This document shows, in pieces, positions 11,889 through 35,440 of a stretch of 41,572 bases of DNA. The DNA is taken from contig JAFSYK010000078.1 of assembly GCA_017449975.1 (NCBI GenBank), forward strand, positions 1-41,572. The letters are read 5' to 3'. Origin of the DNA: Bacteroidales bacterium. Lineage in GTDB: Bacteria > Bacteroidota > Bacteroidia > Bacteroidales > P3. The translations under genes were made by a program, and so were the position numbers. The notes under the pieces were generated by a model, which did not search any database, was not told the origin of the DNA, and saw only the letters and a program-made list of their open reading frames with translations. Position 1 is the stretch's first letter, and every line of letters begins with the position of its first letter.

Positions 11889-12758
11889 CTACCCTTCCAT
11901 CAACCGCATAAAGGTTGGCGGCACCGGCGTTTCGAATTCCATCTTCTTGTTTGTGATGGGATGCCGGAAGCAGAGACGGAAGGCATGCAACGCCAGCCGG
12001 TGGATGGGGGCGCTGTCCTCCTTGTAGCCATACATGGGATCGTGGACCACCGGATGCTGGAGTTCCCGCAGGTGTACACGTATCTGGTTGCGGCGACCCG
12101 TGTCCAACCGCAGCTCCACCAACGAAAAGCGTCCGTTGGTCTGCAGCACTCGGTAATGGGTAACGGCTTTCTTGCCGCCATTGTCGGTGGGAGAAGAGAG
12201 CACACAGTATTGTCCGTCTGTCAGCCAAGAGGTGATGGTACCCTCCTTCGGGGTGATGCTGCCCCACGCCACGGCAATATAGGCACGGTCGTACACCCTA
12301 CCCTTCCAGTCCTCTTCGAACCGACGCGACACCTCCTTGCTTTTCGACACCACCATCAAGCCCGAAGTGTCCCTGTCCAGCCGGTGAACGATATGGGCAT
12401 GGACCGATTCGTTGCGATGGTCCAGATAGTAATTCAACTCGGTGATGACCGTCCGGTCGTTGGGGTGCCGGCTGAACGAGAGTAAACCTTCGTGCTTATT
12501 GACCACCATCAGGTAGCTGTCCTCATAGATAATGTCCAAATTGGAAGGCAAGAAACGGGAAGAATAACTTTTTTTGGTACGTTCCACAAGCATTCCAGAC
12601 TGCAAAGGGAAGTCGAATTGACTCACTTTTCTCCCCTCAACTTTTATCTCATGCGCCAACACCTGCTTCACCTGAGTCTTGCTCATGCCAGGCATCTGCT
12701 CAATCAAAAAATTCAACAGCGTGGTAGGTTCTTTTACCCTAAAACAAACATTGCTCAT
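11889..12758 (-). CDS. RluA-family rRNA/tRNA pseudouridine synthase
   Basis: The 289-residue protein converts uridine to pseudouridine in structured RNA. An S4-like RNA-binding region lies at about 12-50 (SKTQVKQVLAHEIKVEGRKV), and the catalytic motif is HRLDRDTSG at 125-133 with Asp128 as the nucleophile. RNTGRRNQIRVHL-like sequence (DTGRRNQIRVHL) follows, as in RluA/RluD members. The exact target uridine cannot be told. I chose ATG 12758; an earlier in-frame ATG at 12791 would make the parS site part of the coding sequence. A -7 box lies at 12854-12861. It is leftward and downstream of nadA. Confidence 0.9.
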   Translation of the reverse strand: MSNVCFRVKEPTTLLNFLIEQMPGMSKTQVKQVLAHEIKVEGRKVSQFDFPLQSGMLVERTKKSYSSRFLPSNLDIIYEDSYLMVVNKHEGLLSFSRHPNDRTVITELNYYLDHRNESVHAHIVHRLDRDTSGLMVVSKSKEVSRRFEEDWKGRVYDRAYIAVAWGSITPKEGTITSWLTDGQYCVLSSPTDNGGKKAVTHYRVLQTNGRFSLVELRLDTGRRNQIRVHLRELQHPVVHDPMYGYKEDSAPIHRLALHAFRLCFRHPITNKKMEFETPVPPTFMRLMEG

Positions 12759-12774
12759 TGTTTCACGTGGAACA
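12759..12774. promoter_or_regulatory. parS chromosome-partition site (perfect consensus)
   Basis: TGTTTCACGTGGAACA fits the ParB-binding consensus TGTTNCACGTGAAACA when read on the minus strand (TGTTCCACGTGAAACA, the exact Bacillus subtilis form). It sits directly against the rluA start codon. parS sites are usually clustered near the replication origin. No parA or parB is in the window. Confidence 0.9.
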
Positions 12775-12781
12775 TTTTGCG

Positions 12782-12852
12782 TTATCAACAACTTGTTGAA
12801 TGATATGAACTTTCAATTATTCGCTATAACGAGATATCGTTATTACGAAATA
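12782..12852. promoter_or_regulatory. Dyad cluster beside parS
   Basis: Next to parS are a TTATCAACA sequence (12782-12790), a palindrome CAACAACTTGTTG (12787-12799) and a hairpin ATAACGA-GATA-TCGTTAT (12826-12843) that extends imperfectly to 12817-12852. The role is unknown; the dyads could be binding sites of partition or initiation proteins, or act on the rluA leader. Confidence 0.4.
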
Positions 12853-12853
12853 A

Positions 12854-12861
12854 CAAAAATA
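12854..12861 (-). promoter_or_regulatory. -7 box (TATTTTTG) for rluA-type gene
   Basis: An exact TAnnTTTG match on the minus strand; it would give a leader of about 90 nt that includes the dyads and the parS site. Confidence 0.45.
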
Positions 12862-12869
12862 ACGCTTAA

Positions 12870-13823
12870 CTATTTAATTATTCCCAACTTTTTCGACATT
12901 TCCAACATCCGCTCGATGGGCTTGCGGGCCTTGTCGATCATTTCGGGCGACATGACAATCTCGGGCTGCTCATCGTCCAGACAACGATAGAGTTTTTCCA
13001 GCGTGTTCAACTTCATATAGGAGCAGTCCACACAGTTGCAGTTTTTATTGTCTTCCGGGTTGATGACGATAAACTCCTTGTCGGGGTTGTTGCGCTTCAT
13101 CTCCCAGAGTATGCCCGATTCGGTGGCCACGATGAACTGCTTGGCATCGCTGTTTTGGATGAAACTCAACATAGCTTTGGTTGAACCGATGAAGTCGGCC
13201 ACCTGCAGCAGCGCGGCGTTGCACTCGGGATGGGCAATCATCAATGCCTCGGGGTACTCTTTTTTCAACTGGATGGCACGCTCGGCACGCATGGCGTCGT
13301 GCACCATGCAGACACCGTCCCACAAAAGCATGTTGCGACCCGTCACCGAATTGATGTAGCCACCCAAGTTTTTATCGGGAGCGAAAATTATCTTTTGATC
13401 TTCCGGCAGCGAACGAATTAGTTTTTCAGCATTGCCCGAAGTACAGATTAAATCCGACAGGGCTTTGATTTCTGCCGAACAATTGATATAGGAAATAACC
13501 ATGTACCCAGGATGCGCCTCTTTGAAAGCTTTGAAAGCGTCGGCAGGACAAGAATCGGCCAACGAACAGCCGGCGGCCATATCCGGAAGCAGCACTTTGC
13601 GCGTAGGGTTGAGAATTTTGGCGGTCTCGGCCATGAAATGCACACCACAAAAAACAATGATGTCCGCTTCACAGCGTTCCGCCTCCCGGGCCAATGCAAG
13701 ACTGTCACCTATATAGTCCGATATCTCTTGTATCTCGTCACGTTGATAATAGTGACCCAAGATGACAGCGTTTTTTTTCTTTTTTAAAGAAAAAATGGCC
13801 TCTTTCAATTCTTGCATATCCAT
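12870..13823 (-). CDS. nadA: Quinolinate synthase
   Basis: The 317-residue 4Fe-4S enzyme condenses iminoaspartate with dihydroxyacetone phosphate to give quinolinate in de novo NAD synthesis. Three cysteine positions fit the cluster ligands: Cys86 (AAGCSL), Cys172 (DGVCMVH) and Cys267 (CSYM). The N-terminal GHYYQRDEIQE segment, ending in the substrate-binding YY, is present. nadB and nadC are not in the window. A -7 box (13845-13852) lies 22 bp upstream. It is divergent from rpiB across an AT-rich spacer. Confidence 0.95.
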   Translation of the reverse strand: MDMQELKEAIFSLKKKKNAVILGHYYQRDEIQEISDYIGDSLALAREAERCEADIIVFCGVHFMAETAKILNPTRKVLLPDMAAGCSLADSCPADAFKAFKEAHPGYMVISYINCSAEIKALSDLICTSGNAEKLIRSLPEDQKIIFAPDKNLGGYINSVTGRNMLLWDGVCMVHDAMRAERAIQLKKEYPEALMIAHPECNAALLQVADFIGSTKAMLSFIQNSDAKQFIVATESGILWEMKRNNPDKEFIVINPEDNKNCNCVDCSYMKLNTLEKLYRCLDDEQPEIVMSPEMIDKARKPIERMLEMSKKLGIIK

Positions 13824-13844
13824 ACTATATCAATTATTTCAATG

Positions 13845-13852
13845 CAAAGATA
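13845..13852 (-). promoter_or_regulatory. -7 box (TATCTTTG) for nadA
   Basis: Exact TAnnTTTG match on the minus strand; transcription would begin about 15 nt before the nadA ATG. Confidence 0.65.
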
Positions 13853-14249
13853 CGACTTTTTATCCCATCTTCGTCCCTTCCCATTTTTACTTTATAAATT
13901 ATAATCTTTCTTCTTTTTATTTTTTTTATTTTTTTATCTACTTTGTTAATTCTGTTCATATCTTCCTAATGAATTTTACAAGTTTATCTTTCATTAAGTT
14001 CTTCATCGACTTTTCACTATTTAATTAGTTTGTTTTTAATTATTTATCCAATCATTAACACGTTGTTGATAATGGTTTTAACAGTACCTTGTTAGCACAG
14101 TTACGGGCTTTTAATTTCTCTGTTTCATTCTTGAAATGTGTTATTATTTCTCCTGTTTTGACTTATTATTTTCTTTTCAAACCGCAATCAACATGTTTCT
14201 ACACACAAATTGTTAGTAAGTCTCATTTTTGATTTTTTTACATTCTTTT
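13853..14249. other. Very AT-rich spacer at the strand switch (origin candidate)
   Basis: The spacer between divergent nadA and rpiB is strongly AT-rich with long T runs on the plus strand. It holds TTATCAACA on the minus strand near 14062-14070 and TTATCCAATC near 14043, both imperfect matches to a DnaA box (TTATCCACA). Genes to its left run mostly leftward and genes to its right mostly rightward. This makes it a candidate for oriC or a neighbour of it, on inference only. No gene or IS was seen. Confidence 0.35.
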
Positions 14250-14257
14250 TACTTTTG
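14250..14257 (+). promoter_or_regulatory. Promoter of rpiB (TTTTTG / TACTTTTG)
   Basis: Exact -7 box TACTTTTG with a TTTG (-33) ending at 14231, 18 bases upstream. The spacing fits the Bacteroidales promoter. The leader would be about 30 nt. Confidence 0.7.
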
Positions 14258-14293
14258 CAAATAGAGACAACCACCAATAATCTGTGAAGACTG

Positions 14294-14737
14294 ATGAAAG
14301 AGATTATCCCTATCGCCAGTGACCATGCTGGATTTGAACTGAAAGAATTGGTAATCGCGCATCTGCGTGACAAGGGTTTTGAAGTGCGCGATTTCGGCAC
14401 CAACGGTCCGGACAGCGTCGACTATCCCGACTATGCCCATCCTGTCGGTAGTGCAATCAACAAGGGTGAATACCAACGTGGCATCGTTATCTGTGGCTCC
14501 GGCAACGGGGTGCAGATGACGGTGAACAAATACCTGCATGTGCGCTGCGCGCTGTGCTGGACACCCGAACTGGCGCAGCTGGGACGCGCCCACAACGACG
14601 CCAATATTCTCTCTATGCCTGCCCGCTTCATCTCCACCGAAACGGCCATGCAGATCGTCGATATGTTTCTAAATACTCCTTTCGAAGGAGGTCGACACGC
14701 CCGTCGTGTGGAGAAAATCAGTCAGTTGCTTTCATAA
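14294..14737 (+). CDS. rpiB: Ribose-5-phosphate isomerase B
   Basis: The 147-residue enzyme interconverts ribose-5-phosphate and ribulose-5-phosphate in the pentose phosphate pathway. SDHAGFELK at 9-17 and CGSGNGVQM with Cys67 as the proton-shuttling residue mark the RpiB/LacAB family; HNDANIL is also present. Length is normal. It has its own promoter and is followed by a strong terminator, so it is a single-gene unit here. LacA/LacB-like specificity is a less likely alternative since no lactose genes are near. Confidence 0.93.
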   Translation: MKEIIPIASDHAGFELKELVIAHLRDKGFEVRDFGTNGPDSVDYPDYAHPVGSAINKGEYQRGIVICGSGNGVQMTVNKYLHVRCALCWTPELAQLGRAHNDANILSMPARFISTETAMQIVDMFLNTPFEGGRHARRVEKISQLLS

Positions 14738-14742
14738 AATAG

Positions 14743-14777
14743 GAGGGTGAAATTAACAAGATTCACCCTCTTTTTTT
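14743..14777 (+). terminator. Rho-independent terminator of rpiB
   Basis: GAGGGTGAA pairs with TTCACCCTC across a 10-base loop and is followed by seven T. Confidence 0.92.
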
Positions 14778-14789
14778 ACATTTGTAAAC

Positions 14790-14809
14790 ACCCGAAAACG
14801 GGTTTTTTT
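14790..14809 (+). terminator. Second small hairpin with T tract
   Basis: ACCCG-AAAA-CGGGT followed by TTTTTT, 13 bases after the rpiB terminator. It is a back-up terminator or a leader element of the next transcript; the next -7-like box is TTACTTTG near 14875. Confidence 0.55.
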
Positions 14810-14936
14810 CTTTTTTAACATTTTTGTCCCTTCACTTTTAACATTTGCAATGGGGCGACAAAACAAATTTTTTCGTTACTTTGCATCTTTAAATATTGTT
14901 AATTCCTAATCATCCCACTGGAGGTAGTTCTATTGT

Positions 14937-23102: not shown

Positions 23103-23118
23103 TGTTCCTCGTGGAACA
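23103..23118. promoter_or_regulatory. parS-like site upstream of mnmG (one mismatch)
   Basis: TGTTCCTCGTGGAACA differs at one base from the symmetrical parS form TGTTCCACGTGGAACA. In many bacteria parS sites lie near mnmG (gidA). Binding by ParB is likely but weaker than at 12759. Confidence 0.65.
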
Positions 23119-23283: not shown

Positions 23284-25176
23284 ATGCGCTGGGAGTCTTT
23301 TGATATTGTTGTGGTCGGCGGTGGTCATGCCGGCGCCGAAGCCACTATGGCGGCGGCCCGCTTGGGCATGAAGACGCTGCTGATAACCCAGTCGCTGGAT
23401 GCCATCTGTCGTATGTCGTGCAATCCTGCCATGGGTGGCGTCGCCAAAGGGCAGATTGTTCGTGAGATTGACGCCTTGGGTGGCTTCTCCGGCATTGTGG
23501 CCGATCAGACGACGCTGCAGTTCCGTATGCTGAACCGCTCCAAGGGTCCGGCTATGTGGAGTCCGCGGGCACAGTGCGACAAGGATCAGTTTTCGAACAC
23601 CTGGCGTCGCCTGCTGGAGCAGACCCCCAACGTGTCGCTGTGGCAGGACGAGGTGGTGTCGCTGTTGATGGAGGGTAGCCGTGCCGCCGGTGTTCGCACC
23701 CGTCTGGGTGTCGAGGTTCCGGCCAGGGCAGTGGTCCTCACCAACGGCACCTTCCTGCGGGGACTCATTCATGTGGGTGACAATTCCTGGTCGGGTGGTC
23801 GGCTTTCCGAGTCGGCGGCCGACGGATTGTCGCAGCAGTTGTTGGAGATGGGCTTTGAGGTGGAGCGATTGAAAACGGGTACCCCGATGCGGGTCGATGG
23901 TCGTTCCATCCGTTTCGACAAGCTGCAGGAACAGCCCGGCGATACCGATCCGCAGAAGTTCTCGTTTCTCGATGCCACGCATCCCGTTACATCACAAATG
24001 CCATGTTACATGGCATATACGTCCCACGCAACCCATGAAATCCTGCGCACCGGCTTCGATCGTTCGCCGTTGTATACGGGTCGCATACAGGGTAGGGGAC
24101 CCCGCTATTGTCCCTCCATCGAGGATAAGATTGTGCGTTTTGCCGACAAGGATCGGCATCAGATTTTTGTCGAGCCGGAAGGACGTAATACGAACTCTTA
24201 TTATTTAAATGGCTTCTCTTCTTCGTTGCCGCTGGAGGTGCAGCTCGAGGCGCTGCATTCGATGGTGGGCTTCGAGGAGGCCCGCATCTTGAAGCCGGGA
24301 TATGCCATCGAGTACGACTATTTCCCGCCGACACAGCTGCGGTATACGTTGGAGACTTTGCGGGTCGAGAACCTCTACTTCGCTGGACAAATCAATGGTA
24401 CCACGGGCTACGAAGAGGCGGCCTGCCAGGGTTTGATGGCGGGTGCCAATGCCGCCTTCAAGCTGTTGGGACGTGAGCCTTTTGTGCTGACGCGTACCCA
24501 GGCCTATATCGGTGTGCTGATTGACGACCTGGTCAGCAAGGGGGTCGACGAGCCTTATCGAATGTTTACCTCCCGTGCGGAATACCGCACCCTGCTGCGA
24601 CAGGACAATGCTGATGAACGGCTCACGCCGCTGGCTTTTGAAAGGGGTCTGGTGTCGTCGGAGCGGATGGAACGTGTCGCAGCGAAGCGGGAAGCGGTGC
24701 AGCAATTGATTTCGGCAGTCGAGAAGGCGTCGGTTACGCCGGAAGAGGCCGACGAGATGCTGGCGCAAAAAGAGAGTGCCCCGTTGACACAGCGGACGCG
24801 CTTGGTCAATCTGCTGCTGCGTCCCGAGGTGTCGTTGGGCGATTTGCGGGCGATATCGGAACCGCTGGAAGATGCCGTGCAGCTGTTGCCGGAGGCTCTT
24901 CGTGATGAGGTCTGCGAGTCGGCCGAGATAGCGGTCAAATACCAGCGTTATATTGAAAAAGAGCAGGAGGTGGCAGGGCGTATCATGAAGTTCGAGAACC
25001 TGAAGCTGCCATCTGATATGGACTATTTTTCATTGACGGCCTTGTCGTATGAGTCGCGTGAAAAAATGTCGCGCCTCCGGCCGCAAACCATCGGTCAGGC
25101 ATCGCGCATCAGCGGGGTGTCGCCAGCCGATATCTCCGTGTTGATTGTCTATATGAATCATCGTACCGAATCATAG
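23284..25176 (+). CDS. mnmG: tRNA uridine-5-carboxymethylaminomethyl modification enzyme
   Basis: The 630-residue FAD enzyme works with MnmE to modify U34 of several tRNAs. The N-terminal dinucleotide motif VVGGGHAGAEA, the CRMSCNPAMGG segment, the two MnmG cysteine regions (including NGTTGYEEAACQG) and the C-terminal helical domain are all recognisable. Length is normal. MnmE is not in the window. The ATG at 23284 is immediately after the 60-bp duplication; no other start fits. A strong bidirectional terminator follows. Confidence 0.96.
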   Translation: MRWESFDIVVVGGGHAGAEATMAAARLGMKTLLITQSLDAICRMSCNPAMGGVAKGQIVREIDALGGFSGIVADQTTLQFRMLNRSKGPAMWSPRAQCDKDQFSNTWRRLLEQTPNVSLWQDEVVSLLMEGSRAAGVRTRLGVEVPARAVVLTNGTFLRGLIHVGDNSWSGGRLSESAADGLSQQLLEMGFEVERLKTGTPMRVDGRSIRFDKLQEQPGDTDPQKFSFLDATHPVTSQMPCYMAYTSHATHEILRTGFDRSPLYTGRIQGRGPRYCPSIEDKIVRFADKDRHQIFVEPEGRNTNSYYLNGFSSSLPLEVQLEALHSMVGFEEARILKPGYAIEYDYFPPTQLRYTLETLRVENLYFAGQINGTTGYEEAACQGLMAGANAAFKLLGREPFVLTRTQAYIGVLIDDLVSKGVDEPYRMFTSRAEYRTLLRQDNADERLTPLAFERGLVSSERMERVAAKREAVQQLISAVEKASVTPEEADEMLAQKESAPLTQRTRLVNLLLRPEVSLGDLRAISEPLEDAVQLLPEALRDEVCESAEIAVKYQRYIEKEQEVAGRIMKFENLKLPSDMDYFSLTALSYESREKMSRLRPQTIGQASRISGVSPADISVLIVYMNHRTES

Positions 25177-35209: not shown

Positions 35210-35440
35210 TTAGATATTTAGTAAGCTGCAGATGCGGTCTTCCCGGATGATTTTTGGGGCCGCTTTCCCAGCCAGCACCAGTACTTTCTTCCCGTTTCGG
35301 TAGATATGCAGCTGCCGCGAACGGACAACGGCGGTCAACTCGGGGTCGTCCTGCAGGGCCAGCCAGATACGGTGGTATACGCCATCCGCCTCAAACAGCT
35401 TCCGCTGCAGGTGCGAGCACATATTGGTTATGTCATCCAT
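35210..35440 (-). CDS. Small hypothetical protein upstream of yjbR-like gene
   Basis: The 76-residue frame starts at ATG 35440 and ends 4 bp before the YjbR gene. It has no signal or membrane span; LHIYRNGKKVLVLAGKAAPKIIRED is a basic beta-turn-rich part. No family was recognised. The tight spacing and direction favour a real gene in one unit with the YjbR gene. Confidence 0.5.
   Translation of the reverse strand: MDDITNMCSHLQRKLFEADGVYHRIWLALQDDPELTAVVRSRQLHIYRNGKKVLVLAGKAAPKIIREDRICSLLNI

Follow-up and report, generated by a model that had tools for sequence, protein, structure and literature searches.

Chromosomal ParABS systems such as those of B. subtilis, Caulobacter and P. aeruginosa use parS, a 16-bp palindrome that occurs in few copies within one region of the chromosome. 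The distribution of parS in bacteria was reportedly surveyed by Livny and co-workers in 2007. In P. aeruginosa, parS3 and parS4 lie upstream of PA0011 and PA0013, before genes near oriC, and ParB represses the genes adjoining them (PMC5521831, PMC7022226). In B. subtilis, V. cholerae and D. radiodurans, ParB or ParA is described as linked to DnaA through protein contacts (PMC7022226). Bacterial origins, of the E. coli type as well as that of Cyanothece, carry repeated 9-mers in an AT-rich intergenic gap. Among the matches listed from the open-access literature, we found no experimental paper on ParABS in Bacteroidales, where these systems seem to be little studied, and none that describes boxes adjoining parS as they do here.

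The locus described here lies in a window, the whole stretch of 41,572 nucleotides that was analysed, from the draft genome of a Bacteroidales bacterium (G000; 2,313,358 bases, 103 contigs, 95% complete). It resembles the ParABS systems above in its 16-bp palindrome, found in few copies in one region, and in its relatives, which have a parA-parB pair and a ParB close to solved Spo0J/ParB chains. Unlike those systems, it has one exact and one weak copy, parAB is not beside parS, DnaA-box-like 9-mers pair with parS, and the start of rluA is touched or formed by parS in many species. Like parS3 and parS4, the site stands before a gene near a candidate oriC; unlike them, its gene neighbour is not constant. 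We consider it very probably a working chromosomal parS, at which ParB would load for segregation of the origin. This assignment builds on the sequence of the site, its uniqueness and conservation, its pairing with boxes, synteny, and the ParB of relatives. For an uncultured gut bacterium, the window supplies a mapped parS together with a candidate origin and a DnaA-box-like companion that is conserved.

The parS site, its copy number and its conservation

Two places in the window were carried through the analysis:

12759..12774, no strand: parS (putative ParB-binding centromere site), TGTTTCACGTGGAACA; exact consensus, sole exact copy in the genome, conserved
23103..23118, no strand: weaker parS-like site, TGTTCCTCGTGGAACA, one mismatch, in the ybeY-mnmG gap; from the motif scan and the synteny of relatives

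The motif scan found TGTTTCACGTGGAACA at 12759-12774 with 0 mismatches to the consensus TGTTNCACGTGNAACA, and this place is the sole exact copy both in the window and in the 2.31 Mb of the draft. A sequence-only reading of the window had described an exact ParB-site consensus on the minus strand. The exact consensus was confirmed; the strand label has little meaning for a palindromic motif, for which the single place was scored on both strands. With up to two mismatches allowed, 5 places were found in the genome, versus 19 for a backward control motif. Because the control gives 19 at that level, the three places with two mismatches are meaningless, and only 12759 (exact) and 23103 (one mismatch) were analysed further. 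Both lie inside the window, so that the few matches in the draft fall in one region; an even spread of many sites over the genome, which the earlier reading would have counted against parS, was not seen. The backward control had 0 exact matches in each of 60 genomes, including our own, and the exact motif was present in 46 of these 60, with 1–5 copies where present.

Our census of relatives started from rluA, not from parS, and covered 67 genomes of the genus that were at least 90% complete, our own included. An rluA orthologue with an E-value of 1e-70 or better was found in 64 of the 67, and in 53 of these 64 (own included) a parS with at most one mismatch was found no farther than 160 bp from the rluA start; 50 of these sites were exact. 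The site recurs there even though RluA identity to the window's protein is 52–77%. Judged by RluA, the nearest named relatives are bacterium P3, at 76% identity, and, at 70%, Candidatus Colimorpha pelethequi, which is placed in Bacteroidales. The other 11 of the 64 had no parS within 160 bp of the rluA start. Among them, G002, G067 and G079 had an exact site farther upstream of rluA, and G088, G009, G003, G068 and G097 had a 1-mismatch site farther upstream; in G026, G078 and G070, no parS with up to one mismatch was found in the 6 kb scanned upstream of rluA.

Outside the genus, a search restricted to exact sites found parS in 15 of 23 genomes of the order and not in the other 8. In five of the ten genera of the family (g26, g27, g28, g30 and g31), exact parS was found in 0 of the 28 genomes searched; there, either parS has diverged or the system has been lost. 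Exact copies in relatives range from 0 to 5. Any order of events between genera is inferred.

A site this short might be a chance palindrome or an unrelated repeat, although its length is all that favours that reading. With equal base use, a motif with 14 fixed bases should occur about 0.009 times in 2.31 Mb, and the retention of parS at rluA in 53 of 64 genomes leads us to reject a chance origin, which we find scarcely credible.

The relation of parS to rluA

The gene next to parS and two smaller features around its start are as follows:

11889..12758, minus strand: rluA-family pseudouridine synthase gene (Pfam PF00849; TIGR00005 over its cut-off)
12755..12775, minus strand: six-codon frame MFHVKQ-stop made by parS, putatively coding, whose TGA overlaps the rluA ATG (ATGA)
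12811..12859, minus strand: hairpin between the nadA stop and rluA, at the dyads of the earlier reading (RNA fold z -3.42; inverted repeats)

In the window, parS abuts the rluA ATG, which reads as CAT at 12756-12758 on the plus strand. This contact takes two forms in the genus. In 14 of the 53 genomes the rluA ATG is made of an A and the first TG of parS, which would give the protein an N-terminus of MFHVKQ or MFHVKH; in another 14, the window included, parS makes the MFHVKQ six-codon frame with the ATGA overlap. Neither arrangement is present in 25 of the 53. In some genomes parS overlaps rluA, in others it lies up to about 120 bp away, and a few distances are as large as 1.5–3 kb. In genus g32, which has nadA, boxes and parS, no rluA match was found in the short fetched flanks, which extend ∼0.8–4.4 kb beyond parS.

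These arrangements bear on the idea that parS persists chiefly because it serves rluA as an operator under ParB control, where blocked transcription or a blocked start codon would tie rRNA pseudouridylation to the state of the chromosome. That parS abuts or contains the rluA start in so many genomes favours this idea, as does the repression of genes adjoining the intergenic parS3 and parS4 in P. aeruginosa (PMC5521831). However, the offset to rluA is variable, nearly half of the 53 genomes show neither arrangement, and in G002 and G008 (the latter with a 1-mismatch parS) box and parS stand together 1.6–3 kb from rluA; g32 argues in the same direction. Given this variable spacing and the genomes in which the element occurs away from rluA, synteny speaks against a fixed target, and rluA is weakened as the cause of conservation. 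The sequence-only reading had suggested that ParB spreading could affect rluA expression; such an effect is weakened as the reason for the site. We therefore regard the operator idea as improbable. The link to rluA looks positional.

The dense cluster of dyads reported earlier beside the site proved to be real, though loose, with one strong hairpin at 12811-12859. An mRNA hairpin by parS at the window's rluA start was not favoured (z 0.31). Bacteroidota promoters are of a type other than sigma-70, and a sigma-70 promoter scan gave matches at the shuffle level (6 versus 4.9) and nothing useful at rluA. In a near relative, G027, only about 60 bp separate nadA and rluA.

DnaA-box-like motifs and the candidate origin

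On the side of parS away from rluA we annotated the following features:

12782..12790, plus strand: TTATCAACA, a DnaA-box-like 9-mer, 7 bp from parS (motif scan; conserved in the same orientation)
12870..13823, minus strand: nadA, quinolinate synthase (Pfam PF02445, TIGR00550)
13824..14936, no strand: candidate oriC, the gap between the divergent nadA and aminotransferase genes (AT-rich; boxes enriched in the genus)
14064..14072, minus strand: TTATCAACA, the other exact copy in the window, within the candidate oriC (motif scan)

Across the genus, TGTTGATAA, which is TTATCAACA read on the other strand, lies on the rluA-distal side of parS in a single orientation. In 30 of the 53 genomes an exact box lies no more than 30 bp from parS, at a gap of 7–15 bp, and the number rises to 39 of 53 when TGTTRAWAA is allowed. 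In 2000 mononucleotide shuffles of the flanks the mean was 0.017 and the maximum 1, and the reversed motif was found 0 times; on the rluA-proximal side of parS, 0 of 53 genomes had an exact box and 2 of 53 a loose one. In 13 genomes this box is followed, 21 or 22 bp farther from parS, by a second (loose) one, at a distance of two helix turns. All four g32 genomes have nadA and parS together with two boxes spaced 21 bp apart, and this pair lies about 64 bp from parS. The unit looks like the nadA-side boxes plus parS, with rluA as a looser neighbour. What is new is the pairing of a DnaA-box-like 9-mer with parS; the parS itself is ordinary.

Two of the four g33 genomes have an exact TTATCAACA at 34 bp from a parS that sits by the end of DUF4175, away from nadA (G144, L305:1361-1419; G146, L307:1458-1516). 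The proximity of box and parS is therefore not bound strictly to nadA. The genomes of one subgroup, with TGTTTCACGTGTAACA at rluA (G036, G065, G066, G073, G075, G082 and G089), have no TTATCAACA within 30 bp of it.

The same 9-mer recurs in the gap beyond nadA. In 52 nadA-aminotransferase gaps of the genus, TTATCAACA occurred 72 times and TTTTCAACA 81 times, versus 2.4 and 4.9 in dinucleotide shuffles. The classical TTATCCACA was not over-represented in these gaps (2 versus 1.3); the control ATTTCAACA gave 17 versus 3.6, and the other four controls 2–4 versus 1.3–2.3. The window's own gap holds one exact box, and the 100-base segment with the highest AT content in the window starts inside this gap, at 13891. 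In three of four long contigs, TTWTCAACA occurred 5, 4 and 6 times within 7.5 kb of parS versus 0.93, 0.94 and 0.61 expected, and the densest box cluster of each of these contigs also falls within that distance; the boxes of G089 were not clustered near parS (2 versus 1.04 expected).

GC skew, tried on the window and on four contigs, was not decisive. Among the four contigs, the global minimum of cumulative GC skew lies near parS in G011 only; G012 and G089 have local dips near parS, and the minimum of G086 is 22–29 kb away. Skew at 4-fold sites and gene-strand accumulation did not single out the parS region in the window or the four contigs. The repeated 9-mers in an AT-rich intergenic gap resemble those of a bacterial origin, and TTATCAACA itself is shared with the linear-chromosome origin of Cyanothece; as differences, dnaA is on another contig in 14 of the 14 genomes looked at, skew brings no confirmation, and the boxes are TTWTCAACA, not TTATCCACA. 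We consider oriC likely to lie in 13824-14936. The earlier proposal that the site marks the vicinity of the replication origin is favoured by the box clusters and the AT-rich gap, with its GC-skew test not decisive.

The 9-mer is one base off the consensus TTWTNCACA, and in the report that gives this consensus, TTATCAACA is one of the boxes in the DnaA-protected stretch of the Cyanothece origin (PMC4674748). The 9-mer beside parS might instead be no DnaA box: a different protein could bind it, or it could belong to the leader or promoter of rluA. Its spacing to parS is loose (7–15 bp), the gaps enriched in TTATCAACA show no enrichment of the classical TTATCCACA (2 versus 1.3; 3 versus 0.7), and ATTTCAACA, intended as a control, is enriched too (17 versus 3.6; 24 versus 1.1), which makes a broader TGTTGA motif possible. 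On the other hand, the enrichment of TTATCAACA extends to both gaps, including the separate one between nadA and the aminotransferase, the box stays with parS in G002 and G008, where rluA is away, and the Cyanothece footprint covers the same 9-mer. We lean against a non-DnaA site while taking it seriously, and in what follows treat the 9-mers as putative DnaA boxes.

If DnaA does bind there, boxes and parS could form one composite element in this genus. DnaA bound 7–15 bp away might gate or recruit the loading of ParB, such that the initiator would switch segregation on; the arrangement would be looser in g32, of the same family, and in some species the 16 bases of parS would double as the rluA start region. 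We put this forward tentatively and think it rather unlikely as stated. The box companion may link chromosome copying and sorting, and it could open a link between initiation and segregation to testing with no more than a short DNA and two purified proteins.

ParB in relatives and parS sites at other genes

As the sequence-only reading had noted, parA and parB are absent from the window. In the draft assembly as a whole, a profile search with PF02195 (ParB family) found no match, and there was no close match to ParA or to the gene downstream of parB. Of 60 genomes, 57 had a ParB family protein and G000, G009 and G034 did not; among relatives of the same genus it was present in 34 of 36. G028 and G027, the two relatives whose loci were read, carry parA and parB side by side with a third gene; on contig C194 of G027, parA (82488-83249) is followed by parB and then by the downstream gene (84287-84706). 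G000 has no match to C194 between about 75.9 and 88.6 kb. From 88.6 kb on, its contig C84 is collinear with C194, starting at C84 base 2038, and the first base of C84 projects near 86.5 kb, just past the three genes.

The absence of a ParB homologue from the genome, which the earlier reading held would refute a parS, is therefore literally true of the draft. Since 34 of the 36 relatives have ParB, and since C84 starts just past the expected genes, we read it instead as an assembly gap, and missing ParB is best explained by a gap beyond one end of C84. At the opposite flank the match stops inside contig C42 of G000 (base 35263), not at a contig end. As only the C84 side is a contig end, a rearrangement or real loss on the C42 side is possible. 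The case serves as a warning that a ParB absent from a draft genome can be an assembly gap.

The ParB of G027, encoded at L248:2274-3164, has structural matches among the solved chains of Noc, ParB and Spo0J, the best at 4.2e-50, and scores 183.1 against TIGR00180, above the cut-off of 58.45. Its best structural match is a Noc chain, and the Noc model TIGR04285 has the lowest E-value for it, which might suggest that the site serves the ParB paralogue Noc. However, its TIGR04285 score of 236.8 is under the cut-off of 315, while TIGR00180 is over its own, and the gene comes directly after parA; moreover, the Noc binding site differs from parS. A Noc site is thus very unlikely, and the protein of G027 is, by its sequence, a normal chromosomal ParB.

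In the mechanism we favour, a parA-parB pair encoded elsewhere, missed by the draft assembly, would supply ParB. By analogy with the known family, ParB would bind and load at the 12759 parS with CTP and then spread, and ParA and ParB would separate the newly replicated origin regions. Together with parS, the DnaA-box-like 9-mers would make up an element on the origin side, located downstream of nadA at a distance of about 1 kb from the AT-rich gap between nadA and the aminotransferase gene that we take as oriC. The rluA gene would be mostly a bystander, with its start against parS and in some species inside it.

The weaker site of the window lies by a gene that neighbours parS in other families of the order:

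23284..25176, plus strand: mnmG (gidA) (Pfam PF01134)

The ybeY-mnmG gap holds parS in several relatives too, and in all 15 non-genus genomes of the order with an exact site, one lies within about 205 bp of mnmG. In g25, g29 and g33, parS was found in the DUF4175-ybeY-mnmG stretch in the 16 genomes read, each as one 3-kb locus picked for its exact site, and a few of them also in a longer stretch. Among the sites compared at mnmG, ybeY, DUF4175 and the ABC transporter gene, no exact TTATCAACA lay within 60 bp of parS.

Further copies were seen in some relatives. In G001, G007 and G012 an exact TGTTCCACGTGGAACA occupies roughly the same position inside the ABC transporter gene (L087:5290, L095:6706 and L100:6704), and G022 and G028 have 1-mismatch versions of TGTTCCACGTGGAACA in this gene. 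G032 and G011 have a further parS elsewhere (L065:9983 and L099:9664) with an exact TTATCAACA 4 bp off, which faces the opposite way from the box at rluA.
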